Shown here: piece by piece, positions 42,091 through 62,855 of the stretch | Layout: the number at the start of each line of letters is the position of its first letter | How positions within the stretch are numbered: position 1 is the first letter of the stretch | Source: Lachnospiraceae bacterium | GTDB lineage: Bacteria > Bacillota > Clostridia > Lachnospirales > Lachnospiraceae | Assembly (NCBI GenBank): GCA_017622845.1 | Contig: JAGAQJ010000054.1 | Coordinates: 62,001-126,000 of the forward strand | DNA: 64,000 bases | Direction of reading: 5' to 3' | Program-made: the position numbers and the translations under genes | The notes under the pieces: generated by a model | The model's input: only the letters and a program-made list of their open reading frames with translations | What the model was told of the DNA's origin: nothing | The model's database searches: none

Positions 42091-42735
42091 TTACGCCAGC
42101 AGTTCATCCCAGTTATGTACATCATTTAACCCTCTTGCTGCATATGTCGCGCCAAGTTCCTGATAAAAAGGACCGACTCCGAGAGACTTCATGCCTGCTG
42201 CTTTGGCTGCCGTAATACCTGCTGCCGAATCCTCCACTACAAGGCATTCACTGCATGGAAGTTCGAGCTTTTGGGCAGCTACCAGAAATACCTCCGGGTC
42301 CGGCTTTGATTTTGTAATATCCAATCCGCAGCTCACCTGATCAATCCACTCCAAAAGACCTGTTTTTTCAAGAATGACAGGTGTATTCTTACTGACTGAC
42401 CCTACTCCTATCAAAATCCCCTTTTCTTTTAAAAATTTCAAAGTCTCCTTTACTCCCGAAAGCACGGCAGAATCAGTAAGCTCCTGCAAAAGCTCTTTAT
42501 AATAATTATTCTTTTTCTCTGCAAGCATTTCCTTTTCCTTTTCGGAATATACTGTATTCCCCTTACTCAATACAATTTCAAGAGATTCCATTCTGCTTAC
42601 TCCGCGCTGCTTCTCATTGTCCTCTTTTGTAAAATTTACGATCCCGAGCTCATCAGCCAGCTGCTTCCATGCCTGATAGTGCAATTCATCTGTCGAAACA
42701 AGAACACCGTCCAAATCAAAAATGACACCCTTCAT
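42091..42735 (-). CDS. pgmB: Beta-phosphoglucomutase
   Basis: This 214-residue HAD-superfamily enzyme converts beta-glucose-1-phosphate to glucose-6-phosphate. The nucleophile region is FDLDGVLVSTDELHYQAW, with the beta-PGM cap motif RGVSRMESLEIVL and the acidic motif VVEDSAAGITAAKAAGM. Inverting GH65 phosphorylases make exactly its substrate. Its start overlaps the GH65 stop by one base, which ties the two functions together. It is the last gene of the long operon from 53132. Confidence 0.95.
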   Translation of the reverse strand: MKGVIFDLDGVLVSTDELHYQAWKQLADELGIVNFTKEDNEKQRGVSRMESLEIVLSKGNTVYSEKEKEMLAEKKNNYYKELLQELTDSAVLSGVKETLKFLKEKGILIGVGSVSKNTPVILEKTGLLEWIDQVSCGLDITKSKPDPEVFLVAAQKLELPCSECLVVEDSAAGITAAKAAGMKSLGVGPFYQELGATYAARGLNDVHNWDELLA

Positions 42736-44936
42736 TACATTTCCTCCAATTCACATGATACTTTTCTAATCTCCGCATTTTCTTTTGTCTCTGTTATCTC
42801 ATATATCTGGTTTTGATATAAAATGCGGAATTTCAATTTCTCCCAAGACTCTGGAAGCTGCGGCACAGCTGTCACTTGTCCATCTGCAATTTTTACTCCG
42901 CCAAAGCCGTTTATTGCGGTCATATAAGCTCCGCCCGCAGCAGCCGGATGCGTTCCTCCGATATAGATATCTCCTGCCCATTCCTTACCGCCGCCCTTTA
43001 AATCAGCCTGCGCCGATTTTAAAAACAGAGGATATGCCTCCTGCGGTTTCCCACAGCTGCATGCCAAAATGCTATACATACATGCACTAAGCGATGAACC
43101 ATGTTCTGTCCGCGGTTCATAGTAGGACCAGTTTATCCATTTTTCCTCTGCCGTAAAGTCATCAGGAAACATCACCATCCATGTCACAACATCTGCCTGC
43201 TTTATGATCTGTGTATCGGAAGCCACGCCATATGCACCGCCCCAATATTCCTTTTCATTCAGAAGCCGGCTTCTCACTTTTTCTACTGTTGTGTCCTCCA
43301 GTTTCCGGTAGCCGTCAAACTGCGGAACAATTCCCTCTTTATCAGGTTTGGGAATATATATTTTCCTTGCATTGTCCTCAAAGCGCATTCGAATTTGTTC
43401 AATATCATATTCCTTAAGAGCTTCCGCCATCCTTTTATCCTTACTGCACTGTCTTAGCAATATACATGCCTGTTCAAAGGTATACTGCGCCATACGGTTT
43501 GTGTATCCATTGTTGTTTACCCTCTCGTGATATTCATCCGGTCCTATAACATCCCTGATCTCGTATACGTCCGTATGCACTTTCTGCAGCAGCAGTGAGT
43601 CATAGAATCTGGCACATTCAAGCACTGTTTCTGCACCGCCGTGATACAAAAGCTCACTGTCGCCCGTTCTGTTTACATACTTCATAATGCCATATACAAT
43701 CGCTGCTGATATATGTACCTGCTTATCCTTAAAATACGTCCGCATCGGGCGTCCCGTGAATACATCTGTAACATTGTAATCACTGCACGCGTCAAAGCCT
43801 CCTTCCTGAGACTCCCATGCATAAAAGGCTCCCTCATATCCATAGTGTCTTGCCTTTTCCTGCGCGCCGGGCAGCGTATCAATGCGATACTGCAGCAATG
43901 CTTTTGCCGCCTTGGGATGACTGTTTAAGAAAAAGTCCAGCATAAACATTTCCGTATCCCAAAATACGGCACCCTTATAGGTCTGACCGGATAGACCTCT
44001 TGCAGGTATGGACTGGCTCTTTGCATGAAAGGGCGCGATACTCAGCAGATGATAGAGAGAATAATTTAGTGCGCACTCTGCATCCTTATCCCCTGTTATT
44101 TCGACCTCACTGTTTTTCCAAAGCTCTTCCCAGCAGTCAATCTGTTTTTTTCTCATGAAGCTGTAACCCATATTTACTGATTCTGCAAGATCCTTTTTCG
44201 CATCTTCAAGCGGATCGCCACAATCATTTCCGGTATAGACAACAGCAAGCTTTTCCAAATATGCAAGCTTGTTCTTCCTACACTGAAAACAGATTTTACG
44301 CAGGAACTTTTTTTCTGATTTTTCATATGCCTGCTCACATATGCCATTCAGGACTCCATACTCCGCTACAACGACCTTCTCCTTTTTTTCATGGGTGACT
44401 GCCTGTACAACAAGTGTATTTTCATCCAAATTCATATTCACTTCATCGTAATGAGGGCCGTTAATGTCCCAAACGTCTGCATCAATTCCTGTATAAAGCT
44501 CTACTTCGGCATCATAATCAGAGGTAATATAATACATCATGCCAATCAGGTGTCTTTTTTCCATATGTGCAAAGTGCTCCGTTGTAATCGTCACCGTGCC
44601 CTGCGCCGTTTTAAATACAGTCTTTCTGTACACAAGGCCATGACGATAATCAAGACGCTGTTCGTGACATATCGTCTCACTTTGCGGAAGCACATATTTC
44701 ACACCATCCACACATAGAAACGTGTAAAGCGGATTTGGTGCATTGACCGGCTCTCTCCAGCCTTCTCCAACCTTATCATACAGCCCCGCAAGATTGATTG
44801 CGCAAAGCTGTTCCTTTCCGTATTCCTCTAAGGTTCCGCGTATTCCCATATAACCGTTGCCGCACAGAAAGCGATTGCCGTTTGCTGCAATTTCCTGCTG
44901 ATCAAATCCGGTCTTTTCAATTATCCAATTCTTCAT
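42735..44936 (-). CDS. Glycoside hydrolase family 65 disaccharide phosphorylase (second copy)
   Basis: From the ATG at 44936 (AGGAG eight bases upstream, after the previous stop) the protein has 733 residues: MKNWIIEKTGFDQQEIAANG. The general acid Glu lies in DVIGPDEYHERVNNNGYTN, and the phosphate-binding Ser pair in EHGSSLSACMYSILA. GH65 phosphorylases split alpha-glucobioses (maltose, trehalose, kojibiose, nigerose) with phosphate to beta-glucose-1-phosphate. In this locus an alpha-1,3 substrate is likely, but the sequence does not fix it. An ATG at 44984 overlaps the upstream gene and is rejected. Confidence 0.9.
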   Translation of the reverse strand: MKNWIIEKTGFDQQEIAANGNRFLCGNGYMGIRGTLEEYGKEQLCAINLAGLYDKVGEGWREPVNAPNPLYTFLCVDGVKYVLPQSETICHEQRLDYRHGLVYRKTVFKTAQGTVTITTEHFAHMEKRHLIGMMYYITSDYDAEVELYTGIDADVWDINGPHYDEVNMNLDENTLVVQAVTHEKKEKVVVAEYGVLNGICEQAYEKSEKKFLRKICFQCRKNKLAYLEKLAVVYTGNDCGDPLEDAKKDLAESVNMGYSFMRKKQIDCWEELWKNSEVEITGDKDAECALNYSLYHLLSIAPFHAKSQSIPARGLSGQTYKGAVFWDTEMFMLDFFLNSHPKAAKALLQYRIDTLPGAQEKARHYGYEGAFYAWESQEGGFDACSDYNVTDVFTGRPMRTYFKDKQVHISAAIVYGIMKYVNRTGDSELLYHGGAETVLECARFYDSLLLQKVHTDVYEIRDVIGPDEYHERVNNNGYTNRMAQYTFEQACILLRQCSKDKRMAEALKEYDIEQIRMRFEDNARKIYIPKPDKEGIVPQFDGYRKLEDTTVEKVRSRLLNEKEYWGGAYGVASDTQIIKQADVVTWMVMFPDDFTAEEKWINWSYYEPRTEHGSSLSACMYSILACSCGKPQEAYPLFLKSAQADLKGGGKEWAGDIYIGGTHPAAAGGAYMTAINGFGGVKIADGQVTAVPQLPESWEKLKFRILYQNQIYEITETKENAEIRKVSCELEEM

Positions 44937-44958
44937 AGTTCCATCTCCTGCAAGCACA

Positions 44959-47229
44959 CTACTTCCATTCCTTTGGAATTTCAATTGTCTCTGTCTGCTG
45001 TGTCAAAGCATAATCTTTTCCATATATTTTCAGCTCTAATCTGCTGCCCTCAAGCAGGCCTGCTTTTACGCAGTCCTTTTCAACCTGCACCTTCAAGACA
45101 CAATTTCTGCAGGTTATGCGAAACTGATATCCTTTCCAGCCTTGCGGAATTGTCGGCGATAATTCTAAGATGTCACCATCGCTTCTCATGCCGCCAAAGC
45201 CGTAAATAATATTCATCCACGCTGCCGCAATTGATGTAGTATGTAAGCCTTCATCACCATTTCTGTTGTAATTGTCCAAATCCATTCTCGTCGCAAACCG
45301 GAAGAAAGAGTATGCCTCCTCCTTTTTCTTGAGCTGCGAAGCCAGAATAGAATGTACGGAAGGGGAAAGTGAACTTTCATGAATACATCTTGGCTCATAG
45401 TATTCATAATTCACCTTCAGCTCCTCCTCGGAAAACATATGATTAAACATCAGCATAAACATAAGCACATCCGGCTGCTTGATCATATCATTTCTGTAAA
45501 TGCGGTCATACGACCAATGATGATATAATGGAAACTCCTCGACAGGAATCTTATCCACATCAACATGCGGCAATTTGAAAAATCCATCATGCTGCTCATA
45601 CAGCTTGTGCTCATCATCACGGGGAATCAGCATATGCTCTGCCTTTGTGTGCCAGTCAGCTATTTCTGACTCATCTATTGACAATTTATTTACAAGTTCT
45701 TTATATGCCTGCGCATCCTCCTTGCAAAGCTCCTCTAATGTATCAATTGTATACTTCATGGTAAATTTTCCCATAAAGTTAGTATAGCAGTTATGATTTA
45801 CCATCATCTGAAACTCGTCAGGCCCCATGACACAGTAGTAGCCATAGTACTTGCCATCAGCTGACCAGTCACCTCTTGTAGCGAGCATTCTGCTGATTTC
45901 CACAAGCATCTCTGCACCGTATTCTTTTAGGAAAGCCTTATCATTTGACATTTTCTCATAAAACCAAATGCCGTATGCGACTGCCGTAGATGCCTGAAGC
46001 TGCAGGCTTGCGTGCTGCCAAAGATTACAGCATTCTTTTCCACTGATTGTTGCAATCGGATAAAATGCTCCCCTGCAGTCCAAATCAGCCGCACGCTTCT
46101 TTGCCTCCTCCAGAGTTCTGTAACGAAACATCAGTAAATTTCTTGCCGCCTCTAAATTATTAAAGACAAAAAACGGCAGACAATAAGTCTCTGTGTCCCA
46201 AAATGCGTTGCCATTGTACGCCTCACCTGTAAGTCCCTTTGCTCCAATATTGTTTCCGGGATTGGCACCATGGTAGGTCTGCATCATTTGAAAAATGCAA
46301 AAGCGTATTCCCTGCTGATTTTCGTCATCACCGTCAATTACAATATCCGAATGCTCCCAGACATTTTTCCACCAGTCTGCTGTCTCATTTAACAGCTCCT
46401 CATATTCCGCATTTTCTATATGCTTTCTGTTCCCTTCAGCATCCTTCTTTTCATCATTCCATGTGATACGGATCACAGACACTGCTTCCTTTTCTTTTGC
46501 AGCTATAATAAGCTGTTTTCCTATCTTTTTTTCCTCCTCCTGATCCGAAACCGTGTAACTACCGTCGCACCAGATTCTACTTCCGGAATACAAATATTTG
46601 TGTGTGCCCACGGTCTCAGCCGCAATCTCAAAAAAGTCAGGCTCAGCATTCTTGTGCAATACCTTCCAGTAATTCTTCTTATGCATCTGATGAAGAATAC
46701 CAAAATCTGCTTCCATTTTAATCTCAATATTTCCACTATAGTTTAACGGCGTCAAGCGTATGCGCTGTACTCCGATATGCACCTGATTCATAGATAAAAA
46801 ACGCTCAAATACTGCCTTTGTTTTCTTTCCTGACTTTGTAGTCCACACAAAGCTTCTTGTCAGAAGTCCATTCTGCATATCCAGCACACGCTTGTAATCT
46901 TCAATTGATGAAACATATAAATCCAAATTTTCCGAATCTATCGTAATTCTGGTGCTAAGCCAGTTTACTGCATTTACCATAAACTCTGTCTCATTGACAA
47001 CACCCTTGTAGCCGTCTTCTCCAAGCTTAGCTCCGGCATATATTCCGTTAAAATAACTTCCGGTCAGGCCTTTTCCCGAATATCCCTCTTCAAAATATCC
47101 TCGCACTCCCATGTACTCATTTCCAAGTGAAAAAATGGACTCTGCTGCCTGATTGTGCTCTTTGTCAAAGCCTTCCTCAATAATCTTCCATGGATTAACC
47201 TTAAAATACTTATCTGCTATCTTTGCCAT
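44959..47229 (-). CDS. Glycoside hydrolase family 65 disaccharide phosphorylase (first copy)
   Basis: This 756-residue protein starts MAKIADKYFKVNPWKIIEEG. The catalytic acid is the Glu of MGPDEFQMMVNHNCYTN and the phosphate-binding motif is HESSLSPSVHSILAS. It shares family motifs with the next gene but differs greatly over most of its length, so the two are not a recent duplication. They probably act on different linkages or chain lengths. It lies 66 bases after the GH31 gene. Confidence 0.9.
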   Translation of the reverse strand: MAKIADKYFKVNPWKIIEEGFDKEHNQAAESIFSLGNEYMGVRGYFEEGYSGKGLTGSYFNGIYAGAKLGEDGYKGVVNETEFMVNAVNWLSTRITIDSENLDLYVSSIEDYKRVLDMQNGLLTRSFVWTTKSGKKTKAVFERFLSMNQVHIGVQRIRLTPLNYSGNIEIKMEADFGILHQMHKKNYWKVLHKNAEPDFFEIAAETVGTHKYLYSGSRIWCDGSYTVSDQEEEKKIGKQLIIAAKEKEAVSVIRITWNDEKKDAEGNRKHIENAEYEELLNETADWWKNVWEHSDIVIDGDDENQQGIRFCIFQMMQTYHGANPGNNIGAKGLTGEAYNGNAFWDTETYCLPFFVFNNLEAARNLLMFRYRTLEEAKKRAADLDCRGAFYPIATISGKECCNLWQHASLQLQASTAVAYGIWFYEKMSNDKAFLKEYGAEMLVEISRMLATRGDWSADGKYYGYYCVMGPDEFQMMVNHNCYTNFMGKFTMKYTIDTLEELCKEDAQAYKELVNKLSIDESEIADWHTKAEHMLIPRDDEHKLYEQHDGFFKLPHVDVDKIPVEEFPLYHHWSYDRIYRNDMIKQPDVLMFMLMFNHMFSEEELKVNYEYYEPRCIHESSLSPSVHSILASQLKKKEEAYSFFRFATRMDLDNYNRNGDEGLHTTSIAAAWMNIIYGFGGMRSDGDILELSPTIPQGWKGYQFRITCRNCVLKVQVEKDCVKAGLLEGSRLELKIYGKDYALTQQTETIEIPKEWK

Positions 47230-47295: not shown

Positions 47296-49590
47296 TTATA
47301 ATGTAATGCTTATTTCATCCTGAATAGGCACTATCTGCTCTTTACCCTTATAAATGATGCGCAGTGACTTATAACCCTTTTTGTATCCATTTGCCATACA
47401 CTGCATATGAAATCTGCCGTTTGGCGCTATGGAAAAGTGATACAGATTGTACTCACCCTGTCTGTACTGAAAAGATTCTCCATCATCCTGATAATGATAA
47501 TAGTCACCGCTTCCCTGATATACACGCAATGTCAGCTCCGTTATCTCCTTTTCTCCGACATACTGCTGTACCGGGTAGTTTGGCAGAATGGTTCCTGCCT
47601 TCACATAAACAGGGCACGTATCAAGCGGAGCATCCTTTATAAAGTAACCGGGACCCTGTATCAGTTCTTCCGTGTCAAAATCAATCCAGTCTCCCTTCGG
47701 CAGATAAACCATTCTTTTTCTGCTGCCCTGTGTGGTTACCGGCGCTATAAGCATATTCTCACCAAGCATAAATTCATCATTTAGTTCCCATGTATCCGGA
47801 TCATTCTCATATGCAAGCACCAAAGGTCTCATGACCGGAATGCCTGTCTTTGCCATATCACAAAAGCAGTCATATATATATGGAAGAAGCTGATACCGAA
47901 GCTCCACATATTTTTTATAAATCCGGCAGACCTCTTCATCAAACTGCCACGGCTCCTGATATCTTCCGACCTTTGAAGAATGGTTTCTGCACATCGGAGA
48001 AAAACATCCAATCTGTATCCATCTGATTAAAAGCTCCGCAGTGGCATCAGAACCAAAGCCTCCAATATCCGTCCCTGCAAAGCCCATTCCGCTCATTCCG
48101 AGATTACACAGCTGCGGAACAACCATCTGCAAATGTGACCATATACTGTGATTATCACCCGTCCATGTGCAGGCATATCGCCAGCTTCCTGCATAGCAGG
48201 CTCTCGTTATCACAAAAGGGCGTCTCTTGTCATGCTTCTGCATTCCCTCATATGCCGCTTCTGACATCATATGTCCATATACATTATGCATCTGAGCATG
48301 GGTGCTCTTTGCCTCCTCATCACCAAAAACAATATCCGGGGGAATTTCTCCCGCAAAACCCGCAGGCTCATTCATGTCATTCCAAATTCCGCGGAAGCCA
48401 TAATCAACAAGCCTTTTTATCTTCTGCGACCACCACTGTCTTACCTGATATCTTCCAAAGTCCGGATAAACGGCTTCTCCCGGCCAGACAACGTTGGTAT
48501 AAATTTCTCCCTCCGGTGTTGTGGCAAAATAGTTCCCCTTTTTTCCCTCCTCGTATATGTCATATCCTTCTTCTGCCTTTACGCCCGGATCAAGAATCGC
48601 AACTGCCTTAAATCCTTTCTCTGCAAGAAGCTTCATAAGCTCCCTGGGTTCTCCGTATTTTTCTTTGTCAAACGTGAAAACCTTAAACTGCTCCATATAG
48701 TCGATGTCAAAATGAATAGCATCACATGGTATGTTGAACTGCCGCATCTTTTCGGCAATCTCCAAAATATCGCTTCTGCTCTCATAACCCCAGCGTGACT
48801 GGTGATATCCTAAAGTCCACATCTGCGGAACAGGCACCGTTCCCGTCATTTTTATATAGGCAGATATGATTTCTTTTATGCTCTTACCGGAATAAAAATA
48901 ATAATTCAAGTTGCCGCCGTCTGCCGCAAAGTAATAATAATCCGTGCTCTCCTGTCCGAAATCCCAGTATGAGTGGAAGGTATTGTCCATGAAAATTCCA
49001 TATGCACTGTCCGGCTGTTTTGCAATCATAAAGGGAATACTTTTATAAAGCGACTTAAAGCTGTCTACATGCGGCATCGGATTATCAGAATTCCATAGTT
49101 CATACGCATATCCTTTTTTATTCAGAAAGCCTGTCATATCGCCAAGTCCATAGAATGCTGCTGTATTCATCATTTCCTTTACGACTTCGATTTGATATTT
49201 ATCCTTTGATAAGGCCACCTTGTGACCTTCCTTCTTCATAAGTTCAGCCGATTCTTTACTTATCGTTATTCTGGGCATTCGTTTTCCCCGGTAATCCCTG
49301 CATAGGGCATTGCCGTTTCCATCATATACATCTATCTTAAAATCATCATATACCCATACCGTCAGAACATCTGTCTGTATCCTGACAGCATCTTCCTTCC
49401 GGGTAACATTTATATTCGTTTTTATTATTTTCTCATCTACTACTGCCTTCGACGGAATCCGATCCGCCCCAAAATCCGAATAAACATGAAAGACCCTCGG
49501 ATTTATGACTGTAATCTCTCCGCTCTGATATTCAAAATTTATTTTTATTTTCTGTCCTGTCTGTGTATATTCTATTATTTTCCCAAACAT
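47296..49590 (-). CDS. Glycoside hydrolase family 31 alpha-glucosidase
   Basis: This 764-residue retaining exo-acting enzyme has its catalytic nucleophile Asp in FRGIWNDMNEPAGF and the acid/base Asp in WTGDNHSIWSH. The N-terminal beta-sandwich, TIM barrel (HQSRWGYESRSDILEIAEKM onward) and C-terminal beta domains have normal length. There is no signal peptide, so it acts on imported sugars. GH31 members hydrolyse alpha-1,3, 1,4 or 1,6 bonds, and the locus suggests alpha-1,3. Confidence 0.93.
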   Translation of the reverse strand: MFGKIIEYTQTGQKIKINFEYQSGEITVINPRVFHVYSDFGADRIPSKAVVDEKIIKTNINVTRKEDAVRIQTDVLTVWVYDDFKIDVYDGNGNALCRDYRGKRMPRITISKESAELMKKEGHKVALSKDKYQIEVVKEMMNTAAFYGLGDMTGFLNKKGYAYELWNSDNPMPHVDSFKSLYKSIPFMIAKQPDSAYGIFMDNTFHSYWDFGQESTDYYYFAADGGNLNYYFYSGKSIKEIISAYIKMTGTVPVPQMWTLGYHQSRWGYESRSDILEIAEKMRQFNIPCDAIHFDIDYMEQFKVFTFDKEKYGEPRELMKLLAEKGFKAVAILDPGVKAEEGYDIYEEGKKGNYFATTPEGEIYTNVVWPGEAVYPDFGRYQVRQWWSQKIKRLVDYGFRGIWNDMNEPAGFAGEIPPDIVFGDEEAKSTHAQMHNVYGHMMSEAAYEGMQKHDKRRPFVITRACYAGSWRYACTWTGDNHSIWSHLQMVVPQLCNLGMSGMGFAGTDIGGFGSDATAELLIRWIQIGCFSPMCRNHSSKVGRYQEPWQFDEEVCRIYKKYVELRYQLLPYIYDCFCDMAKTGIPVMRPLVLAYENDPDTWELNDEFMLGENMLIAPVTTQGSRKRMVYLPKGDWIDFDTEELIQGPGYFIKDAPLDTCPVYVKAGTILPNYPVQQYVGEKEITELTLRVYQGSGDYYHYQDDGESFQYRQGEYNLYHFSIAPNGRFHMQCMANGYKKGYKSLRIIYKGKEQIVPIQDEISITL

Positions 49591-49651: not shown

Positions 49652-51292
49652 TTACTGATTTGACTTATATGTGTTGTAAGCATCTGTCTGAATTTGGATG
49701 AAGTCCTCATAGCCCATCTGATTTAATGTATCAATATAGCTGTCCCACTGCTCTTCAATGCCGCCTTCTGTTACCCATGCTGCCTGATTAACACCTACAT
49801 AAGATGTAATATCTGAGAAGAGTGTTCCCAATGTCTCTACCTGCTCTGCTGAATAGCTGACATTTGGATATGCTTCCATTGCATACTGCTTCATGCTCTT
49901 ATCAAGCTCAAGCTTTGCTGCATCTCCGTTTTCACCTGCATAGGTTACCTTGTCATTAAAGCCTTCTCCTACATACTTAGGTCCAAAGTCACGAAGAGAA
50001 TTTACCCACGCATAGGTATCTGCTGACATGCCGTCCTTTGGTTCAAGTACTGTATAAGTGCCTGCTGCTTCGTCCTTCTCTACACCGATATCAAAAGCGC
50101 CGTAGAAGTTCTGGATAGAAGCATCCTCTGTGTAGAATTTGTCAACCCATGATAATAACTCGCCCGGATTTTCACAAGATGAAGTAACTACAAATTCATA
50201 TCTTGTGTAGTTATAATGTTCAGGGTCAGAAGCGATATACTGCTTTCCGTCCGGTCCCTTTAAAGCAGGCAATGCTTCATACTGGTCTGCATTTGCACCA
50301 AATGTAGCGTCCGCTGTCCAGCCCGGTGCACAGCCTATAATTGGTGTCTCGCTCATGAGCTTTGCATCTCTCATGGAAGTATCCTCTGTAAAAAGCTCCG
50401 GATCAATTAAGCCTTCTGCATAAGCTTCATGCATTGCTGCAATACCTGTCTTGTACTCTTCAGATACCGGGATAAATACAGGGTTGCCATCATCAAGAGT
50501 CATGGTATAGGTATTCTCACCACCAAGCCTTACTCCAAACGGCAGGCAGTAGAACATAACGGAATCTGCATTGCCGAGTCCATATGGAATTTCATCATTC
50601 GGATCACCGTTTCCGTTTGCATCCTGTTCCTTGAAAGCTCTGAGAACATCGACAAACTCATCATAGGTAGTCGGCATATCAAGTCCAAGATTGTCTAACC
50701 ACGTCTTATTGATAAACAACTGGTTTCCTACTATAGGTCTGCAGGGCTTCTTAGAGGGAAGTCCATAGATATGACCGTCTGCCGAGGTTGCAAGCGCTTT
50801 CATGGTAGGGTCAGACTCCATAATTTTTTTGAAGTTAGGCATGTACTCGTCAATGTAGTCATCCAATGCGATAAATGTACCCACATTTGTCAAAATATCT
50901 GTCTCTGAGAAGCAGATAGAGCCCATGAATGCGTCCGGTAAATCACCGCCTGCCAATAAAACTGCCTTGCGGTCTGCCCAGTCTGCATTGAGTATGGTGT
51001 CCCAATTAATATTAATCCCTGTCTCCTTTGCTGCCTCATCAGGAAATCCTATATGATAGTCCTCTCCCCAGTCAGCCCAGCGGACAGTTGCCACCTCATA
51101 GCTTCCTCCGCCTGCTGTATTATTATCTGCCGAAGCTGACCCATCATCTGTCTTTGTTTCTGTTGTATCTCCCTGTGAAGTAGCTGCTGCTGCATCATCT
51201 TTTGACGGTTCAGCCGAACTTCCGCAGCCGACAAGCGAAACTGCTGTCATTGCCATTGCCATTGCAAATGCCATTATTCTTTTTTTGCACAT
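49652..51292 (-). CDS. Extracellular solute-binding lipoprotein (LplA/LipO type), copy 1
   Basis: This 546-residue protein has a signal peptide and lipobox (VSLVGCGSS, Cys near 23), then a Ser/Asp/Thr linker and a large type 1 binding-protein fold. A Ca-site-like stretch FKEQDANGNGDPNDEIPYG is typical of long LplA-like proteins. AAGGAG lies eight bases before the ATG. It follows the two permease genes and should deliver gluco-oligosaccharides to them. It is a close paralogue of the protein at 61129-62766. Confidence 0.93.
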   Translation of the reverse strand: MCKKRIMAFAMAMAMTAVSLVGCGSSAEPSKDDAAAATSQGDTTETKTDDGSASADNNTAGGGSYEVATVRWADWGEDYHIGFPDEAAKETGININWDTILNADWADRKAVLLAGGDLPDAFMGSICFSETDILTNVGTFIALDDYIDEYMPNFKKIMESDPTMKALATSADGHIYGLPSKKPCRPIVGNQLFINKTWLDNLGLDMPTTYDEFVDVLRAFKEQDANGNGDPNDEIPYGLGNADSVMFYCLPFGVRLGGENTYTMTLDDGNPVFIPVSEEYKTGIAAMHEAYAEGLIDPELFTEDTSMRDAKLMSETPIIGCAPGWTADATFGANADQYEALPALKGPDGKQYIASDPEHYNYTRYEFVVTSSCENPGELLSWVDKFYTEDASIQNFYGAFDIGVEKDEAAGTYTVLEPKDGMSADTYAWVNSLRDFGPKYVGEGFNDKVTYAGENGDAAKLELDKSMKQYAMEAYPNVSYSAEQVETLGTLFSDITSYVGVNQAAWVTEGGIEEQWDSYIDTLNQMGYEDFIQIQTDAYNTYKSNQ

Positions 51293-53189: not shown

Positions 53190-53250
53190 ATCATAGCTTT
53201 TTTCTTTTTCCGTTGATAGCACTAATCCGTCACAAAAATAGCACTAATAA
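53190..53250 (-). promoter_or_regulatory. Glucan operon control region with 22-base-spaced direct repeats
   Basis: TAGCAC boxes at 53217-53222 and 53239-53244 are part of ATAGCACTAAT repeats exactly 22 bases apart. A -10 like TATGAT on the minus strand lies at 53190-53195, with no good -35, as expected for an activated promoter. The same pair occurs at 55098/55120 and 62820/62842. Confidence 0.7.
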
Positions 53251-55024: not shown

Positions 55025-55065
55025 CAAATCCTCCGTTACTTTTTTATCCTGTATTTTGATATCTG

Positions 55066-55134
55066 TTTTTAGGCTACTTTGTTTTTACCTTGCCCGATAG
55101 CACAATCCGGTTTTTTTATTAGTACAAATCCGCA
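55066..55134 (-). promoter_or_regulatory. Chemoreceptor/kinase intergenic control region with 22-base-spaced direct repeats
   Basis: TAGCAC (55098-55103) and TAGTAC (55120-55125) stand 22 bases apart, embedded in ATAGCACAATCCG and TTAGTACAAATCCG. They have the same orientation relative to the minus-strand chemoreceptor as in the other two promoters. A TAAAAA at 55066-55071 is a weak -10 for that gene. The site could also act on the divergent kinase promoter. Confidence 0.7.
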
Positions 55135-55180: not shown

Positions 55181-55226
55181 AAGATAAATTCCTTAATTGC
55201 ATTTGCGTCAAAAGGAGGGGCATATC

Positions 55227-56921
55227 ATGAAGGACAAAATTTCCAAGAAAAGAAAATATTCCTATTCTCTGGCTGACAACTTGAAAATATTTATTTGGAT
55301 AGCCGCGTTTGTAATAACCATTAATCTGATAATAAGTGCCATCTCCCTTGTCAATATCAGACATCAAAACTTTGACACGATAGAAAACTCTGTCACTCTT
55401 TTTCAGCAGGAAACCTCTTCGCGCCTCAATGCAATACAGCATTTTTTGGAATGGACGATTGTAAAGGAGCTGCTTATTGAGTCGCTGGAAAGCACGACCA
55501 ATGATTATGAACAATATCTTTCTTTGGATTCTCTCCAAATCCGCATCGCTAACCACCAGTATACGACCGGCAATAAATTTAACTATTTTTTATATTTTCA
55601 GGGTCAAAATCAGTTTCTTAACGTTTCAAAACTGAACTTTACTTATGACGATTATTTAAAAATAAAAGATTTTATTATCCAATATTCATCTTCCGATAAA
55701 AGGCATCTGCTCTCGTGGCAGTTTACAGAAATTAACGGCTCAACCTATATGTATTACATAGTTAGCTACAGCAACCGTACACTAGCTACCTTTATCAATG
55801 TAAATGATTTATTTATGCCCTTAATGGATATGAATTTTGTAGAACAGGGAAAGCTTGTTATCACAGATAAGAATGAAAATATTATTTTTTCATCGGATGA
55901 GGAGCAAGAGCTCAAAGACTCTTCCTTTTACCACACACTTCATACTTTTTATGGAAATGATGGACATCTGCCTTATAATATATTGCTTTATACGGATAAT
56001 TTTCAAAATTACGGAAACCTGTTTCTCTTTCATTTGGTTGTCATTATAACCTCAACGGGAATCTGCCTTATTCTTTCTGTCTTGATTTTTAATATGTATA
56101 AAAAGGTTATTAAGCCGATACAGGCGTTTTCCGCAAATCTGGCAAGCATTAACCATGACAGCGAAAGCGTTCTGCTTGACTTGCAAAGCAATCGTATCCG
56201 CGAGCTGGAGCAGACGAATATACAATTTAAAAATCTCATTCGCGAGATAAAGCGGCTAAAGATTACCGTTTATGAAAAGGAGCTTGAAAAAAAGCACTTC
56301 GAGATTACCTTTTTGCAGCATCAGATTAAGCCGCATTTTTATTTAAACTGTCTGACTACAATCAACAGTATGGCTCAGCTTGAGGATTATAAGAATATTG
56401 AATCCATGGTTGTCTTTACCTCACGCTATCTGCGCTATCTGTTTCAGACAGACAAGGATTTCTTATGTATTGAATATGAGCTGGAGCATATCGAGGCATA
56501 CCTTGATATTCAGCAGCTTCGTCTTGGAACATTTTTCACCTATACCTGCACTATTGACGAGAATGACAAGAATGCGCTGATTCCTCCGCTGCTGCTGATT
56601 ACATTTATCGAGAATACAATAAAACACAACACTGCATCTGACGGCAGACTGCAGATACGGCTCGCGTTCGCACAACAACGACAGGGTGACGACCTATATC
56701 TGAAAATCGATATCAGTGATTCGGGGAAGGGCTTTCCTGACGATGTACTTGAACGCCTGTCTCTTTGCAAGAGCATTGACGGAGATGGTATTCCGCATGT
56801 AGGCATTGAAAATAGTATACAGCGGCTCAATCTGCTCTATGGCGGAAAGCACAAAATCCGTTTTTTTAATGAAGAGCAAGGCGGAGCACATATACAGTTA
56901 TTTATTCCGTATCAGATTTAG
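55227..56921 (+). CDS. Sensor histidine kinase, LytS/YesM family
   Basis: From the ATG at 55227 (AGGAGG eight bases upstream) the kinase has 564 residues. Membrane segments are near residues 20-40 and 270-292, with an extracellular sensing domain of about 220 residues. HAMP follows. The His-kinase motif is FLQHQIKPHFYLNCLTTINS with the phosphoacceptor His before FYLN. The ATPase has an N box (TFIENTIKHNT) and a G box (DSGKGFPDD). Family members pair with AraC-type response regulators to sense sugars, and such a gene is 12 bases downstream. Confidence 0.94.
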   Translation: MKDKISKKRKYSYSLADNLKIFIWIAAFVITINLIISAISLVNIRHQNFDTIENSVTLFQQETSSRLNAIQHFLEWTIVKELLIESLESTTNDYEQYLSLDSLQIRIANHQYTTGNKFNYFLYFQGQNQFLNVSKLNFTYDDYLKIKDFIIQYSSSDKRHLLSWQFTEINGSTYMYYIVSYSNRTLATFINVNDLFMPLMDMNFVEQGKLVITDKNENIIFSSDEEQELKDSSFYHTLHTFYGNDGHLPYNILLYTDNFQNYGNLFLFHLVVIITSTGICLILSVLIFNMYKKVIKPIQAFSANLASINHDSESVLLDLQSNRIRELEQTNIQFKNLIREIKRLKITVYEKELEKKHFEITFLQHQIKPHFYLNCLTTINSMAQLEDYKNIESMVVFTSRYLRYLFQTDKDFLCIEYELEHIEAYLDIQQLRLGTFFTYTCTIDENDKNALIPPLLLITFIENTIKHNTASDGRLQIRLAFAQQRQGDDLYLKIDISDSGKGFPDDVLERLSLCKSIDGDGIPHVGIENSIQRLNLLYGGKHKIRFFNEEQGGAHIQLFIPYQI

Positions 56922-56933
56922 GGAGGATTCAAT

Positions 56934-58505
56934 ATGAATGTATTACTTGTCGATGATGATCGTTTTGTGATTGCTTCACTTATGAAGGGTATTCATTGGG
57001 AGGAGCTTGGATTCGACGGTGTTTTTACTGCACAGAATATCACGGATGCCAAATCAATTATAAAGCAGAATTCTATAGATTTTTTATTAAGCGACATTGA
57101 TATGCCTAACGGAAACGGGCTTGACCTGCTTGCATGGATTCGGGAGCATCATAATGAAATGCCTGTTATATTTTTAACAAATTATGCTGACTTTTATTAC
57201 GCACAAAAGGCGATCAGCTTAAAGAGTTTTCACTACTTCTTAAAGCCGATCGAATTTGATAAGCTGACAAGTATTATAAAAGAAGTAACTGCCCAACTTA
57301 TGCAGCAGAACAATCAGCAGGAGAAAAACTGCGAAATATTCTGGCATGCTTTTCTGCATGACGAAATATCCGATATGAATGACTTAAACCAGTATTTTAT
57401 ATCGCATCATCTGCCCTATAGAGATACCGACTTTTTTATCCCTATCATGTTTGACCTGTTTCCATACTACTTTGGAGCAGATAATCAGCTTTGCAGCCAT
57501 TTTTCGGACAGAAATGAACAAAATGCCTATATGAAGTCTGTCTTTGAGGCAACCTTTATGGAGCAGCTTGCACCGTCTGATGTCTTTTTGATATACAATG
57601 AGGTTTCTGCGCGCTATTTAGCGATCTTTAGACAGGATACTGAGGAGGTTTCTCCGTTTTTCTCTATGAACTGTGAGCGCTTTATAGAAACCGTGTCCTC
57701 ACAGATGCAGTGTAATCTAAACTGTTTTGTGGGCATACCCTCGCGCATTGCTTCATTCCGCTCCGGTATGCGCAGTCTCCGCACTATGCTTGCAAACAGC
57801 CTTGACTGTAATGGAAAGGTTCTGCTGTTGTCATGCTATCAGCCTGCCGCTGAAAGCTATCCTGCCTGTAATGTCGAAACACTTGATCTTTACCTGCAGA
57901 CCGGCCAGTATTCTGCATTTATTGATTACTGCGAGCAATATCTGCACCGCCTGTCAAGCTGCCAAAGCCTGCATGCCGTATCGCTGAACAGCTTTCAGAT
58001 TGATGTGGTACAGATATTATATTCTTTTTTGCGAACCAAAGGAATCCTTGCCAATAAGCTTTTTCATGATGATACTTACCATATTCTATCCGTAAATGCT
58101 CCGAATTCCATTTTCGACATGAAACTGTATCTTCATTATATTATTCATATTACGCAGGATTATCTTGAGAAAACCACATCCGATAAATCCATCGCAAAGT
58201 CAATGCAGGATTATGTAGATCAGCACTATGCTGAAGATATCAGCCGCAGCAGTCTGACAGATATCTTTTACCTGGACCCTGATTATGCATCAAAGCTCTT
58301 TAAAAAAGAAACGGGAATTTCCTTTAAGAATTATATTATACAAAAGCGAATTGAGGTAGCTAAGAACTTACTCAGTACCACTGACCTGCCTATCAATATG
58401 GTGTCAGATAATGTTGGGTATGGAAATTATTCTTACTTTACAAGACTGTTCAAAAAAGTAACTGACATGACTCCGAATGAATATCGAAATGCACATGGAA
58501 TTTAA
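56934..58505 (+). CDS. AraC-type response regulator
   Basis: This 523-residue regulator has an N-terminal receiver domain with phosphoacceptor Asp54 (LLSDIDMPNGNG), Thr and Lys switch residues (FLTNYADF, FLKPIEF), and a middle region of about 300 residues. The C-terminal double helix-turn-helix is of AraC type (SLTDIFYLDPDYASKLFKKE, then VGYGNYSYFTRLFKKVTDMT). It is co-transcribed with the kinase. AraC proteins bind direct repeats one or two helical turns apart, which fits the 22-base repeats found at three promoters of this locus. Confidence 0.94.
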   Translation: MNVLLVDDDRFVIASLMKGIHWEELGFDGVFTAQNITDAKSIIKQNSIDFLLSDIDMPNGNGLDLLAWIREHHNEMPVIFLTNYADFYYAQKAISLKSFHYFLKPIEFDKLTSIIKEVTAQLMQQNNQQEKNCEIFWHAFLHDEISDMNDLNQYFISHHLPYRDTDFFIPIMFDLFPYYFGADNQLCSHFSDRNEQNAYMKSVFEATFMEQLAPSDVFLIYNEVSARYLAIFRQDTEEVSPFFSMNCERFIETVSSQMQCNLNCFVGIPSRIASFRSGMRSLRTMLANSLDCNGKVLLLSCYQPAAESYPACNVETLDLYLQTGQYSAFIDYCEQYLHRLSSCQSLHAVSLNSFQIDVVQILYSFLRTKGILANKLFHDDTYHILSVNAPNSIFDMKLYLHYIIHITQDYLEKTTSDKSIAKSMQDYVDQHYAEDISRSSLTDIFYLDPDYASKLFKKETGISFKNYIIQKRIEVAKNLLSTTDLPINMVSDNVGYGNYSYFTRLFKKVTDMTPNEYRNAHGI

Positions 58506-58518
58506 TCTTATATGTACT

Positions 58519-58562: not shown

Positions 58563-58591
58563 TAATCAAAGGTTTTTTCTTATATCAAATT

Positions 58592-61102
58592 TTATTTGGA
58601 AGTCTTTTTCTTATGATAAATGACAGCTGCTCCTATTAAAATAATAATGACAGCTGCGATACCCACCCCATATCCTTTTGCTGTATGATAATCCTTTTCT
58701 TCACCTTCCTGAGCATCATGCTCCGTTGTCTTTTCAGTCGTTTGGCTACTCAAAGCCTCCATCTCTGCCTGCGCCTTCTCCTCAGCAGTCAGGACATTCA
58801 TTTTCTTTGACAGCTTATTGTTCTGCATGTCAGACTCGCCATAGCGTGCTGTATCATTCACCCAGACAGTAATCACATGTCTGCCAAGCACTGCCGGCCA
58901 TACATCCTTTCCTGTCGGTCCGCTGTTTGCTGTTATTGTCACACTCTCACCCGGCTCTATCTGCGTTTTATTCGTGTCTGACCATACGACGCAGATTCCA
59001 TCTACCTGAAATTGTGCTCCGTTTATGATTTCGGCCGGAGTCGCGCCATTTCCCTGATTGGTAATCACTGCTGAGAATACAATGTCATCCCCCTCTGCCG
59101 GAAGCTCAGGCTCCCACATGATATCTGTAACAACTATATCAGGAATTTCACAAGTATCAGGAGCGTCATCTGCTCCTTCAACGATTAATGGTGCCACTTT
59201 TTCTGATTTTAACACCTCTGCATTTGGATAAGGCGGTATCTGATAGCCGATATTTCCCTCATTGATCTCATCATTTATCTCAATCCCGTCCTCCTTGATA
59301 AGAAAATTGATGTTCGTATTTGCTATATTTCTTAAATACATCCTACTTATCGTAATCAGTGCATTACCGCCAAAGTTCATGACAGCTGCTCCTCTGTGAG
59401 CCACAGATATCTTGTCCGGTCTTTTTCCATCGACACCTGCACCATAGACATACAGGTCATTAAATACGATGTTAACAACATTGTCTCCGACTCTGACTCC
59501 GTCATGCTGCGCACTGTAAATATATGTATTGTCAAAGGTGATGTTTCTTACGCTTCCGATTACATCCACTGCACCAAGCTCACTGCCCCACGATTCATTG
59601 CTCGTTCCGCTGCTGATTATAATATTATTGGCAAAGTGAATATTCTTGGTATTGTTAAATTTATAGCCGGAAAATGTTGTATTTAAATGTATTCCTGAAG
59701 CCATAAAGCTGTCACGAATATAATTGTTATAAATTTCGTGCCCATCACCGCCATATATGGCAATTGCCCCTGCCCTCCATGAGAGGTCAATGGTATTGTA
59801 GCAAAATTTATTATTTCTGGCATCCTTAACCGACAAATAATCATTATTCCACACTGCCAAACCATCATCTCCATTATTTCTGATGGAACAGTTATACACT
59901 GACGAATTGCTCGTACCCTGGCAGAAGTTTACACCATCTGCAAAATTATTTCTGATACGGCAGTTTGCAATTATCAGATTGTCAGAGTAGTCTACCGGTG
60001 CATCATAGTCTGCGATCCAAAAGCCGCACTCAAAATGATCTTCCCAGATATCATGAATATAAGAATCATTTCCATAGGTTCCCATAAAACATTTATAAAT
60101 TGCCTGCTCCTCATAACGCGAACGGAGATTGGAATTGATATACATATTGCAGAACTCAATACTGTTTATCTTGCCATTTCCCACACCTGCTATCCCACCT
60201 GACTGCGGCTTATCGTTTGTAAACTGAATATTGGTATACCAGATTCCGGCTCCGGTGATTGTCATATCTGATGCTTCTAAAGACCATATCTGATTAATAT
60301 GATAGGTTCCGGCAGGGATATATACATCCTTTTGGTCTTCATTAGCAGCAGCAACGCAGGCTGTAATCGCCTCATAGTCGTCCTTTCCGTCGTCTGCAAC
60401 TGCTCCAAAGTCTGCAATAGAATAGGAATTAGAGGGCTGTTCTATCGGTGCAGCTGCCTCCTCAAGCTCAATAAAATCTACACCATAAATCAATCCGTTT
60501 GCGCCTGAACTTTGAATACGGATTTTATCGCCCGGCTCCAGCATCTCCTCTAACAGAAAATGCACCTCGTCAAAGGCAAAGCATGCTGTCCCTTTTCCCG
60601 GAGCATCCTTGGGACTTCCGTCCATATACTGCCACATATAATAAGAAGTTAAATCTACTGTCTTGACCTTACTGCCATTTACATAGACATCCAACGAGCC
60701 GTCCTGTCCCATTCCATCCGCGGTATCAGGCAGTGTAAACCGCATCGTAACTCCGTTTCCGGAAGTTTCTACTGTCCATTCAGCATAAGCGCCGTCACCT
60801 GGCAGATTTACATAGGACTGATTGGATGCCTGACTTGCTATTTCCTCCAAGTCCCAATCATAGGATGTCTTAAGCTCTGCCCCGCCTCCAAGTTCAGCTT
60901 CACATGAATCATATCTGATATAGGGCATATTTGCACCAATTGACATTGCATTATCATCCGCCTCGGGAATGGTAAGCTGAGCACTCTTTCCTGTTGCCTC
61001 CCTTGCATATATATCGAAAGACAATCCCGCAGCTAATAACGCAGCCGCCAGCACTCCGCCCGTTACCATATATAATCCTTTTGTTTTTTGAGTTTTTTTC
61101 AA
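58592..61102 (-). CDS. GH87 alpha-1,3-glucanase / mycodextranase, surface-anchored
   Basis: This is an 836-residue secreted enzyme. A signal-peptide-like helix (near 10-33) leads to a carbohydrate-binding beta-sandwich (about 60-215). A right-handed beta-helix follows (about 225-650). The pattern FADGVNFCQGTSNSSVYNC then NNGDDGLAVWNN matches GH87 enzymes such as Bacillus circulans alpha-1,3-glucanase. By that comparison D389, D412 and D413 are the catalytic acids. A CARDB-like domain (DIVVTDIMWEPELPAEGDDI) and a C-terminal membrane helix with KKKTSK tail follow, so the enzyme should stay on the cell surface. It would release nigero-oligosaccharides from alpha-1,3-glucan or nigeran. It is 26 bases after the second binding-protein gene. 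Confidence 0.85.
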   Translation of the reverse strand: MKKTQKTKGLYMVTGGVLAAALLAAGLSFDIYAREATGKSAQLTIPEADDNAMSIGANMPYIRYDSCEAELGGGAELKTSYDWDLEEIASQASNQSYVNLPGDGAYAEWTVETSGNGVTMRFTLPDTADGMGQDGSLDVYVNGSKVKTVDLTSYYMWQYMDGSPKDAPGKGTACFAFDEVHFLLEEMLEPGDKIRIQSSGANGLIYGVDFIELEEAAAPIEQPSNSYSIADFGAVADDGKDDYEAITACVAAANEDQKDVYIPAGTYHINQIWSLEASDMTITGAGIWYTNIQFTNDKPQSGGIAGVGNGKINSIEFCNMYINSNLRSRYEEQAIYKCFMGTYGNDSYIHDIWEDHFECGFWIADYDAPVDYSDNLIIANCRIRNNFADGVNFCQGTSNSSVYNCSIRNNGDDGLAVWNNDYLSVKDARNNKFCYNTIDLSWRAGAIAIYGGDGHEIYNNYIRDSFMASGIHLNTTFSGYKFNNTKNIHFANNIIISSGTSNESWGSELGAVDVIGSVRNITFDNTYIYSAQHDGVRVGDNVVNIVFNDLYVYGAGVDGKRPDKISVAHRGAAVMNFGGNALITISRMYLRNIANTNINFLIKEDGIEINDEINEGNIGYQIPPYPNAEVLKSEKVAPLIVEGADDAPDTCEIPDIVVTDIMWEPELPAEGDDIVFSAVITNQGNGATPAEIINGAQFQVDGICVVWSDTNKTQIEPGESVTITANSGPTGKDVWPAVLGRHVITVWVNDTARYGESDMQNNKLSKKMNVLTAEEKAQAEMEALSSQTTEKTTEHDAQEGEEKDYHTAKGYGVGIAAVIIILIGAAVIYHKKKTSK

Positions 61103-61128
61103 CTACCGTTTCCTCCCGACATCACTTA

Positions 61129-62766
61129 TTAGTTTGTCATATAGGTATTGTATGCATCTGTCTGAATTTTCATAAAGTCCTCATAGCCCATTTGATATAA
61201 GGTGTCGATATAGCCGTCCCATTGCTCTTCAATACCGCCCTCTGTTACCCATGCTGCCTGATTTATCCCTATGTAGGATGCAATATCAAAATACAAGGTC
61301 TCCAATTTGTCTAACTGTTCTACCGTATAGCTGACATTTGGATATGCTTTTACTGCATACTTTTTCATGCTCTTGTCAAGCTCAAGCTTTGACGCATCCC
61401 CATTTTCTTCCACATAAGTCACCTTATCATTAAATCCGTCTGCTACATACTTTGGTCCAAAGTCACGAAGTGAATTTACCCATGCATAGATATCTGCTGA
61501 CATGCCCTCTTTGGGTCCAAGCACTGTATATGTTCCTGTTTCTTCATCTTTCTCTACCCCTATGCCAAACGAGCCATAGAAGTTTTGAATCGATGCATCC
61601 TCTGTATAGAACTGATCAATCCACGATAGCAGCTTTCCCGGATTTTTGCAGGAGGAGGTGACGACAAATTCATATCTCGAATAGTTCCAATGCTCCGGAT
61701 CAGAGGAAATATACTGTTTTCCATCCGGTCCTTTTAATGCCGGCAGTGCAGTATACTGGTCTGCATTTGCGCCAAAGGTCGAGTCAGCTGTCCAGCCTGG
61801 TGCGCAGCCGATAACTGGTGTCGTATTCATCAGCTTTGCATCCCGCATAGAATCATCCTGTATAAACAGCTCTGAGTCAATCAGCCCTTCTGCATAGCAT
61901 TTCTGCATTGCCTCAATACCTGTCTTATACTCCTCAGATGTTGGTATAAAAACCGGCTTACCATCCTTTACAGTCATTGAATAGGTGCCGTCGCCTCCGG
62001 GTGTCACTCCAAACGGCAGACAAAAAAACATGACGGAATCTGCATAGCCCTCTCCATAGGGAATTTCATCGTTGGGATCGCCATTTCCGTTTGCATCCTG
62101 CTCTTTAAAGGCTCTCAGCACATCCACAAACTCATCATATGTAGTCGGCATATCCAGTCCGAGATTATCCAGCCATGTCTTATTAATGAACATCTGGTTT
62201 GCTACAGTAGGTCTGCAAGGCTTCTTGGACGGCAGCCCATATATATGACCATCTGCCGAAGCTGCCAGCGCTTTCATTGTCGGATCAGACTCTAAAATCT
62301 TTTTGAAATTAGGCATATATTCATCAATGTAATCATCCAGTGCAATAAAAATATCTGGATTTGTCAATATATCGGTTTCCGAAAAGCATATGGAACCCAT
62401 AAATGCATCCGGAAGCTCGCCGTCCGCCAGCAAAACAGACTTTCGGTCACCCCAGTCTGCATTCTGTATTGTATTCCAGGTAATACTTATTCCCATCTCA
62501 GCCGCCGCAGCATCAGGGAAGCCTGTATGGTAGTCCTCACCCCAATCCGCCCAGCGTACTGTTGCCACCTCATAGTTTTCATCCGCAGTACTTTTTTCTG
62601 ATGTTGTCATATCATTACCTATTCCCACTGTTTTTCCATGCAGGTTCTCTTTATCTGCCGCACCGCTTTCCTTTGCATCAGACAGAGACTTCCCACATCC
62701 TTCCAGTAAACCAGCTGTCAACACAGCTGCCATCAACAACAGGGTAACTGCTCTTCTCCTATGCAT
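61129..62766 (-). CDS. Extracellular solute-binding lipoprotein (LplA/LipO type), copy 2
   Basis: This 545-residue lipoprotein has the lipobox LLEGCGKS (Cys near 24) and a binding domain that shares long identical stretches with the protein at 49652-51292 (for example FKEQDANGNGDPNDEIPYG and DLDNLGLDMPTTYDEF-like segments). The linkers after the Cys are unrelated. The two genes therefore come from a duplication in which one copy joined the GH87 gene. No permease lies nearby, so it probably feeds the LplB/LplC pair of the main operon. Transcription would start at the operator-bearing promoter upstream. Confidence 0.93.
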   Translation of the reverse strand: MHRRRAVTLLLMAAVLTAGLLEGCGKSLSDAKESGAADKENLHGKTVGIGNDMTTSEKSTADENYEVATVRWADWGEDYHTGFPDAAAAEMGISITWNTIQNADWGDRKSVLLADGELPDAFMGSICFSETDILTNPDIFIALDDYIDEYMPNFKKILESDPTMKALAASADGHIYGLPSKKPCRPTVANQMFINKTWLDNLGLDMPTTYDEFVDVLRAFKEQDANGNGDPNDEIPYGEGYADSVMFFCLPFGVTPGGDGTYSMTVKDGKPVFIPTSEEYKTGIEAMQKCYAEGLIDSELFIQDDSMRDAKLMNTTPVIGCAPGWTADSTFGANADQYTALPALKGPDGKQYISSDPEHWNYSRYEFVVTSSCKNPGKLLSWIDQFYTEDASIQNFYGSFGIGVEKDEETGTYTVLGPKEGMSADIYAWVNSLRDFGPKYVADGFNDKVTYVEENGDASKLELDKSMKKYAVKAYPNVSYTVEQLDKLETLYFDIASYIGINQAAWVTEGGIEEQWDGYIDTLYQMGYEDFMKIQTDAYNTYMTN

Positions 62767-62787
62767 ACGATTCCTCCTATATTTCCA

Positions 62788-62855
62788 TTTATAGCTTACT
62801 TTTTTTCTATACTATGTGATAGCACAATTTCGCTTTTTTATTAGTACTTATCCGC
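62788..62855 (-). promoter_or_regulatory. GH87 operon control region with 22-base-spaced direct repeats
   Basis: TAGCAC (62820-62825) and TAGTAC (62842-62847) are exactly 22 bases apart, with ATCCGCAC after the second box as at 55128-55135. A TATAAA on the minus strand (62788-62793) is a plausible -10, and the proximal box would touch the -35 position, as for an AraC-type activator. Confidence 0.72.

Follow-up and report, generated by a model that had tools for sequence, protein, structure and literature searches.

Profile searches and genome comparisons suggest that a compact locus of a Lachnospiraceae bacterium is very probably a utilisation system for alpha-1,3-glucan, a resistant polysaccharide found in the cell walls of fungi and in dental plaque. 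The locus lies at positions 42091-62766 of a 64-kb stretch of DNA (contig JAGAQJ010000054.1 of assembly GCA_017622845.1, positions 62,001 to 126,000; source genome 3.6 Mb), referred to here as the window. The evidence consists of the type and catalytic residues of its GH87 glucanase, the specificity motifs of its two GH65 phosphorylases, the co-occurrence of these GH65 proteins with GH87 in other genomes, and the repeated clustering of such genes. The initial annotation had proposed a complete, self-contained path for alpha-1,3-glucan from the cell surface to glycolysis, with no gut-type locus known to combine all its parts; the path itself is supported by this evidence, and the claims of self-containment and of lacking any described counterpart are revised below.

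Every gene named here is an intact open reading frame (ORF) at the coordinates given. Families were assigned by Pfam and NCBIfam profile searches of the locus proteins, and the gene list of the initial annotation is correct in all place and family assignments (for the solute-binding proteins, SBPs, by way of the matches of SBP1 to PDB chains). The features of the locus are as follows:

42091..42735, minus strand: beta-phosphoglucomutase (beta-PGM; TIGR01990 equivalog, 231.5 bits, cut-off 189.4)
42735..44936, minus strand: GH65B, predicted nigerose phosphorylase (PF03632)
44959..47229, minus strand: GH65A, predicted alpha-1,3-oligoglucan phosphorylase (PF03632)
47296..49590, minus strand: GH31 alpha-glucosidase (PF01055, 403 bits)
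49652..51292, minus strand: SBP1, solute-binding lipoprotein of the transporter operon (lipobox LVGC, by eye)
51324..52211, minus strand: LplC-type permease (PF00528, BPD_transp_1)
52224..53132, minus strand: LplB-type permease (PF00528, BPD_transp_1)
53217..53244, minus strand: direct repeat GTRCTA-N16-GTRCTA, about 85 bases upstream of lplB
53288..55027, minus strand: methyl-accepting chemotaxis protein (MCP, chemoreceptor; PF00015, 93.5 bits)
55098..55125, minus strand: direct repeat GTRCTA-N16-GTRCTA, about 70 bases upstream of the chemoreceptor gene
55227..56921, plus strand: sensor histidine kinase (PF06580, PF02518)
56934..58505, plus strand: response regulator with AraC helix-turn-helix domain (PF00072, PF12833)
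58592..61102, minus strand: GH87, probable alpha-1,3-glucanase (CatAgl_D1, D2 and CARDB domain)
61129..62766, minus strand: SBP2, second solute-binding lipoprotein, 26 bases ahead of GH87
62820..62847, minus strand: direct repeat GTRCTA-N16-GTRCTA, about 54 bases upstream of SBP2

Two starts were moved to likelier ATG codons, that of GH65B from 44984 to 44936, with AGGAG upstream, and that of the kinase from 55197 to 55227, with AAGGAGG upstream (both read by eye). We take the PF06580 kinase to be of the YesM/LytS type and the AraC-type response regulator to be of the YesN type.

Enzymes and importer of the locus

The catalytic domains of the GH87 protein match PF22815 (D1, 142.5 bits) and PF22816 (D2, 80.5 bits), each with a cut-off of 27. 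Its best solved relative is Agl-KA (PDB 5zru, 571 bits), the other chains listed reaching at most 145 bits in a comparison that holds no mycodextranase sequence. Exchange of D1067, D1090 or D1091 of Agl-KA for Ala or Asn is reported to nearly abolish activity (PMC6814745), and D389, D412 and D413 of the window protein align with these three residues (chain numbering mapped by hand) and are invariant in seven aligned GH87 rows, the window and six relatives. The protein has a hydrophobic N-terminus, and in its hydropathy profile residues 810-828 form a hydrophobic segment with a lysine-rich tail behind it, which suggests a C-terminal membrane anchor. It is the one GH87 match in its own genome, and is 54-58% identical to the GH87 proteins of three Prevotella loci (L098, L099 and L102).

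As the GH87 family is described as including both mutanases and mycodextranases (PMC13421300), the locus could instead serve nigeran, in which alpha-1,3 and alpha-1,4 bonds alternate. The GH87 protein would then act as a mycodextranase on the alpha-1,4 bonds of nigeran, and GH31 would split those that remain, a role consistent with the resemblance of the window GH31 to ordinary alpha-glucosidases rather than to the alpha-1,3-specific LlGH31_u1. The score to Agl-KA speaks against this, as does the identity to the Prevotella enzymes, PmGH87 of that genus being reported as a mutanase (PMC13421300). The sequence thus favours a GH87 of the Agl-KA type that cuts linear alpha-1,3-glucan over a mycodextranase, and we consider a nigeran locus distinctly unlikely.

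The best PDB match of GH65A is 6w0p (709 bits), with maltose phosphorylase at 467 bits; GH65B has its best match in the glucosylglycerol phosphorylase 4ktp (490 bits), followed by kojibiose phosphorylase (371 bits). Such labels, together with the frequent activity of GH65 and GH31 enzymes on maltose, would suit an ordinary maltose/starch or kojibiose locus that chances to include GH87. Six positions are linked to GH65 specificity (64, 392, 394, 402, 416 and 585 of CsKP; De Beul et al., PMC8537180), and the same source gives them as FAITQA in the tested alpha-1,3-oligoglucan phosphorylase ChGP, KV[MF]NES in maltose phosphorylases and EEAPxx in kojibiose phosphorylases. The motif of GH65A is F-A-I-N-Q-S, which shares F, A, I and Q with FAITQA at 64, 392, 394 and 416 (four of six positions, two of these agreements being reached after shifting alignment gaps by hand), and that of GH65B is E-E-Q-S-Y-A. 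Neither motif matches KV[MF]NES. EEAPxx is likewise absent from both, GH65B having Q and S at 394 and 402 and GH65A differing at all four defined positions. Maltose and kojibiose phosphorylase were accordingly rejected as identities for either protein, and with the strong co-occurrence with GH87 described below, a maltose/starch or kojibiose locus is highly improbable and both readings were dropped.

The motifs are conserved in eight aligned rows for each protein, the window included. Among GH65A rows A, I and Q are kept in all eight and F in seven, positions 402 and 585 being variable; among GH65B rows E, E, Q and A are kept in all eight and S in seven, with Y or F at 416. GH65A carries the stretches GPDE (469), SSLS (619) and GLH (661), and GH65B carries GPDE (465), SSLS (614) and GTH (661, corrected numbering). 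We take the Glu of GPDE to be the catalytic acid, and SSLS and GxH presumably also have roles in GH65 phosphorylases. A review table lists Cphy_3313 as a nigerose phosphorylase and Cphy_3314 as an alpha-1,3-oligoglucan phosphorylase (PMC8950772). Their adjacent locus tags recall the window pair, likewise made up of GH65 genes of two kinds, and motif and gene order suggest Cphy_3314 as the counterpart of GH65A and Cphy_3313 as that of GH65B.

The closest solved chains to the window GH31 are alpha-glucosidase-type GH31 proteins, and no signal peptide was seen on it. Its assignment as an alpha-1,3-glucosidase of the LlGH31_u1 type was rejected, since it scores just 119.5 bits to the LlGH31_u1 chain (7wj9), against 584.8 for the GH31 of the closest related locus, L082. 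High-scoring chains include 6jr6 (414 bits) and 3n04 (356 bits), which we take to be the dextran-active FjDex31A and an enzyme that prefers isomaltose. These scores would be consistent with a locus for mixed alpha-1,3/alpha-1,6 glucan (alternan, branched dextran or cyclic nigerosyl-nigerose), where GH31 would be an alpha-1,6 glucosidase and GH87 would cut the alpha-1,3 stretches; glucan of S. mutans is reported to have both linkages (PMC13421300). Neither an endo-dextranase nor a GH13 isomaltase is found among the locus ORFs, and we regard a dedicated mixed-glucan locus as unlikely, although the idea overlaps with that of an alpha-1,3-glucan system, natural mutan having alpha-1,6 branches.

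At a threshold of 0.001 neither SBP1 nor SBP2 has a match in Pfam or NCBIfam. SBP1, the one of the two that was compared with the PDB, matches solute-binding proteins there (best 5g5y, 204 bits, with AlgQ1 and AlgQ2 lower). The two are 75% identical over the aligned protein, and the origin of the duplicate is not settled by the SBP tree, in which five of six inner branches are open and long branches are present. No transporter ATPase is found among the locus ORFs, and the one OB_MalK-type ATPase match in the genome lies outside the locus, on contig C4. The locus is therefore not self-contained, as its ABC importer has no ATPase of its own. CheW-domain matches at five places in the genome indicate that chemotaxis genes exist, so the chemoreceptor can have partners.

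Contig C4 also carries a GH31_u1 homologue, which scores 607 bits to the L082 enzyme. It belongs to another transporter locus (L243/L244), of the two-component/Lpl/chemoreceptor type, which includes a chemoreceptor-like gene and one that by eye resembles the alpha-amylase family. Two further genomes of the genus (G006 and G007) contain distant Lpl loci, L077 and L078, with a binding protein 44% and permeases 58-60% identical to those of the window, and with GH31_u1-type genes 43% and 40% identical to the L082 enzyme.

The promoter repeat

The direct repeat GTRCTA-N16-GTRCTA, with a period of 22 bases, precedes lplB, the chemoreceptor gene and the SBP2-GH87 pair, the copy at 55098..55125 sitting in the intergenic space common to the chemoreceptor and kinase genes. 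Exact matches in the window number three, against a mean of 0.00 in 100 shuffles; with one mismatch allowed there are still three, against a chance mean of 0.39, and three of the 100 shuffles reach this number. As the pattern was derived from these very promoters, the shuffle figures are post hoc. The whole genome holds only the three matches of the locus and none of a reversed-pattern control. The shared promoter motifs noted in the initial annotation are thus real, each of the three genome matches standing ahead of a promoter region of the locus.

Genus-wide, the pattern is not enriched, which counts against the proposed system: 38 genomes hold 19 matches, compared with 58 for the reversed control. 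These matches are spread over 14 of the 38 genomes, and seven of the 19 are runs of GTGCTA-like repeats. Since the control exceeds the pattern, a lone match elsewhere means little and the pattern alone is not rare. The regulatory signal is that a single locus has a site at each of three promoter regions, together with recurrence in related loci. The repeat also precedes lplB in L082 and in G019, another genome of the window's genus, which has three matches, one before lplB on contig C412 and one inside an ORF by coordinates. The Prevotella locus L099 has two overlapping matches. Two half-sites two helical turns apart suit an AraC-type dimer, and the response regulator of the locus is the predicted ligand of these sites.

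Distribution and related loci

In 397 genomes of the family, GH87 is found in nine, the GH65A clade (at least 54% identity, with next matches at 40% or less) in ten and both in seven. The hypergeometric probability of this overlap is about 1.5e-11, or about 4.5e-10 leaving out the window genome (relatedness not corrected). Co-occurrence was also followed in 20 GH87-bearing genomes picked from the 80 named GH87 loci; all 20 carry labels of Bacillota groups, Paenibacillus not being among them. A GH65B homologue (46-68% identical) is present in all 20, with a second GH65 directly upstream on the same strand in 18. This upstream gene was confirmed as GH65A type in 16 of the 18 (59-69% identity over the fetched part), those of G441 and G450 being recorded as pieces only. 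Homologues of beta-PGM come after the GH65 pair in several genomes. Within the genus (38 genomes), an intact full-length GH87 is found only in the window genome, as is the GH65A clade. Remnants of GH87 consist of a broken fragment in G024 and short weak matches in three other genomes.

Several observations weigh against the proposed substrate or against a fixed association of the two families. GH65A departs from FAITQA at 402 (N, alignment ambiguous) and 585 (S), and the division into nigerose and oligoglucan phosphorylases leans on motifs and on how such genes stand in tandem in other L. phytofermentans genomes. Of the 20 genomes picked, G442 carries its two GH65 genes on separate contigs and G449 is without a confirmed GH65A (its nearest other GH65 is 4.3 kb off). 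GH65B and GH87 share a contig in seven of the 20 and are on different contigs in 13 (draft assemblies, with contigs matched by length). Two of the nine GH87-bearing family genomes, G215 and G402, whose GH87 proteins are 38% and 34% identical to that of the window, do not have the GH65A clade, and three carriers of GH65A (G061, G277 and G391) do not have GH87. No GH65A or GH65B homologue is found in the fetched flank at 74 of the 80 GH87 loci (61 of the 80 are at least 21.5 kb long, with both flanks nearly full). GH65A, GH65B or both are in the flank at the other six (L082, L088, L089, L090, L104 and L117), so close linkage is the exception. The surroundings of GH87 in 12 regions of nine genomes (eight of the family, plus G024) show no binding-protein, GH65 or beta-PGM homologue at 1e-10, and one of the regions, that of G242, holds distant LplB/LplC homologues (34%). 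Finally, G019 has a related locus that retains the transporter and regulator genes, the promoter repeat, GH65B and beta-PGM, and neither GH87 nor GH65A has a match in this genome.

This sister locus is split over two contigs (L075 and L264). Contig C412 carries the start of lplB with the repeat and homologues of the chemoreceptor (62%), kinase (60%) and response regulator (69%), and contig C257 carries lplB, lplC (85% and 89% identical to the window genes), two SBP genes, GH65B and beta-PGM. The two copies of lplB agree exactly over their first 43 bases. The last 31 bases of L075, at the end of C257, look like a sequencing-adapter remnant, presumably a Nextera-type adapter end, which may explain the split. 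GH28-like beta-helix proteins (weak PF00295) adjoin GH65B/beta-PGM genes in several genomes, including this GH87-less locus (L075:736-2172 and 5147-6685; also L169:7370-8992, L266:18513-20000, L088:2024-3646, L104:3130-4755, and L090, L092 and L205). Most have an N-terminal hydrophobic segment, the aspartates of PNGDG and WDD are conserved, and only polygalacturonase-like chains of the PDB match, the best at 31 bits. They could be an uncharacterised family of alpha-glucan enzymes that replaces GH87.

The closest relative of the window locus is L082 (Lachnospiraceae metagenome-assembled genome Mgla_MAG_25-bin_14), where response regulator, kinase, GH87, LplB, LplC, SBP and GH65A genes stand in one stretch in this order. 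Its proteins are 59-91% identical to those of the window (kinase 59%, response regulator 66%, LplB 90%, LplC 91%), and the two loci share the promoter repeat before lplB. L082 differs in having a GH31_u1 (585 bits to LlGH31_u1) after GH65A in place of the other type of GH31, and in having one binding protein and no chemoreceptor, GH65B or beta-PGM in the 21.7 kb fetched. LlGH31_u1 is reported to be highly specific for alpha-1,3 bonds of the nigerose type, its kcat/Km reaching 13% of the nigerose value on kojibiose and 2.1% on maltose (PMC9061262), and the presence of a close relative of this enzyme in L082 is independent support for an alpha-1,3 substrate. Contig C20 (L215) of the same genome (G437) carries a GH65A-GH65B pair and a beta-PGM-like gene (49%) away from the GH87 locus, and two alpha-1,3 systems may therefore coexist in this organism.

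A described cluster of L. phytofermentans ISDg limits the claim that no comparable locus has been reported. It has GH87 near a GH65 nigerose phosphorylase, with GH31, ABC transporter genes and LacI (Cphy_1874, GH87, the GH31_u1 Cphy_1877, ABC and LacI), and a role in nigerose degradation has been proposed for it (PMC9061262). Genes for GH87, GH65, GH31 and an ABC importer likewise lie close together in the window, but where the ISDg cluster has LacI regulators and a GH31_u1, the window locus has no LacI, a kinase with an AraC-type response regulator, and another type of GH31. A chemoreceptor, a second binding protein and a tandem GH65 pair are not mentioned for ISDg in the section 11 text of that paper. 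In a second strain, L. phytofermentans KNHs2131 (G164), a GH65A-GH65B pair has the same order as in the window. It stands in a row of genes, preceded by those of a binding protein and two permeases and followed by a gene that by eye is LacI-like, encoded on the opposite strand, and by beta-PGM. This row differs from the window in its SBP_bac_1-type binding protein, in its distant permeases (23-29% identity) and in having GH87 on another contig; the genome of L083 has GH65 at the same coordinates. Outside the Bacillota, a putative polysaccharide utilisation locus (PUL) of Prevotella melaninogenica (PmGH87, GH97, GH99) also joins a GH87 mutanase to surface capture and import genes. Unlike the window, it is of the SusCD type of Bacteroidota and uses hydrolases, and the text of the report that was available mentions no GH65 or GH31 (PMC13421300).

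A search of titles and abstracts, which left most subscription journals outside its range, turned up no experimentally characterised GH87 locus of Clostridia with phosphorylases. The window locus differs from the L. phytofermentans cluster in two-component control, an Lpl-type importer with two SBPs, a chemoreceptor, both GH65 types in one locus with GH87, a different GH31 and a predicted dedicated regulon. Its single parts are known from other bacteria; their combination here with a dedicated switch and sensor is a novel form of an already known type of locus.

Proposed function

According to the proposed pathway, a secreted, membrane-anchored GH87 would cut alpha-1,3-glucan (mutan or the pseudonigeran of fungal walls) to nigero-oligosaccharides, which SBP1 and SBP2 would capture and LplBC import, with energy supplied by a shared ATPase whose gene lies outside the locus. 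Once they are in the cytoplasm, GH65A would phosphorolyse oligosaccharides of at least three units down to nigerose and GH65B would phosphorolyse nigerose, both releasing beta-glucose 1-phosphate, which beta-PGM would convert to glucose 6-phosphate. GH31 may be left to hydrolyse short ends or bonds of other kinds, alpha-1,4 or alpha-1,6. The kinase is predicted to sense a sugar-derived signal, and its AraC-type partner to bind the paired GTRCTA sites at three promoters, those of SBP2-GH87, of the chemoreceptor and of a putative operon LplB-LplC-SBP1-GH31-GH65A-GH65B-betaPGM. This two-component switch would turn on digestion, uptake and chemotaxis together.

SBP2 is predicted to be co-expressed with the mutanase rather than the importer. 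Of the three loci compared, those of the window and of G019 have both a second binding protein and a chemoreceptor, and the 21.7 kb read of L082 contain neither. We tentatively suggest a feed-and-seek module, in which the dedicated two-component system would induce surface mutanase, importer and chemoreceptor, SBP2 would present alpha-1,3-oligosaccharides to the chemoreceptor or the kinase, and cells would climb gradients of released fragments; we hold this extension to be possible, though rather doubtful.

The locus is adjoined in the window by NAD salvage genes (35515-41785), namely an NrtR-like regulator, NAD synthase, nicotinate/nicotinamide phosphoribosyltransferase, a PRPP-synthase-like protein and an isochorismatase-family (nicotinamidase-type) protein. 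In the first 30 kb of the window, where ten ORFs were scanned, the region 226-18794 resembles a ribosomal protein gene cluster, with RNA polymerase alpha (4554-5588), SecY (10094-11407) and ribosomal protein L2 (17952-18794), and genes for CbiQ and an ABC ATPase lie at 226-1942.

The locus would join the surface, import and phosphorolysis steps of alpha-1,3-glucan use in a compact stretch, the ATPase being apart, and a single predicted switch would govern digestion, uptake and chemotaxis alike. It may be a source of a mutanase and of nigerose-making phosphorylases, and with its close relatives would offer a direct test case for the use of alpha-1,3-glucan from fungal walls or plaque by Lachnospiraceae.

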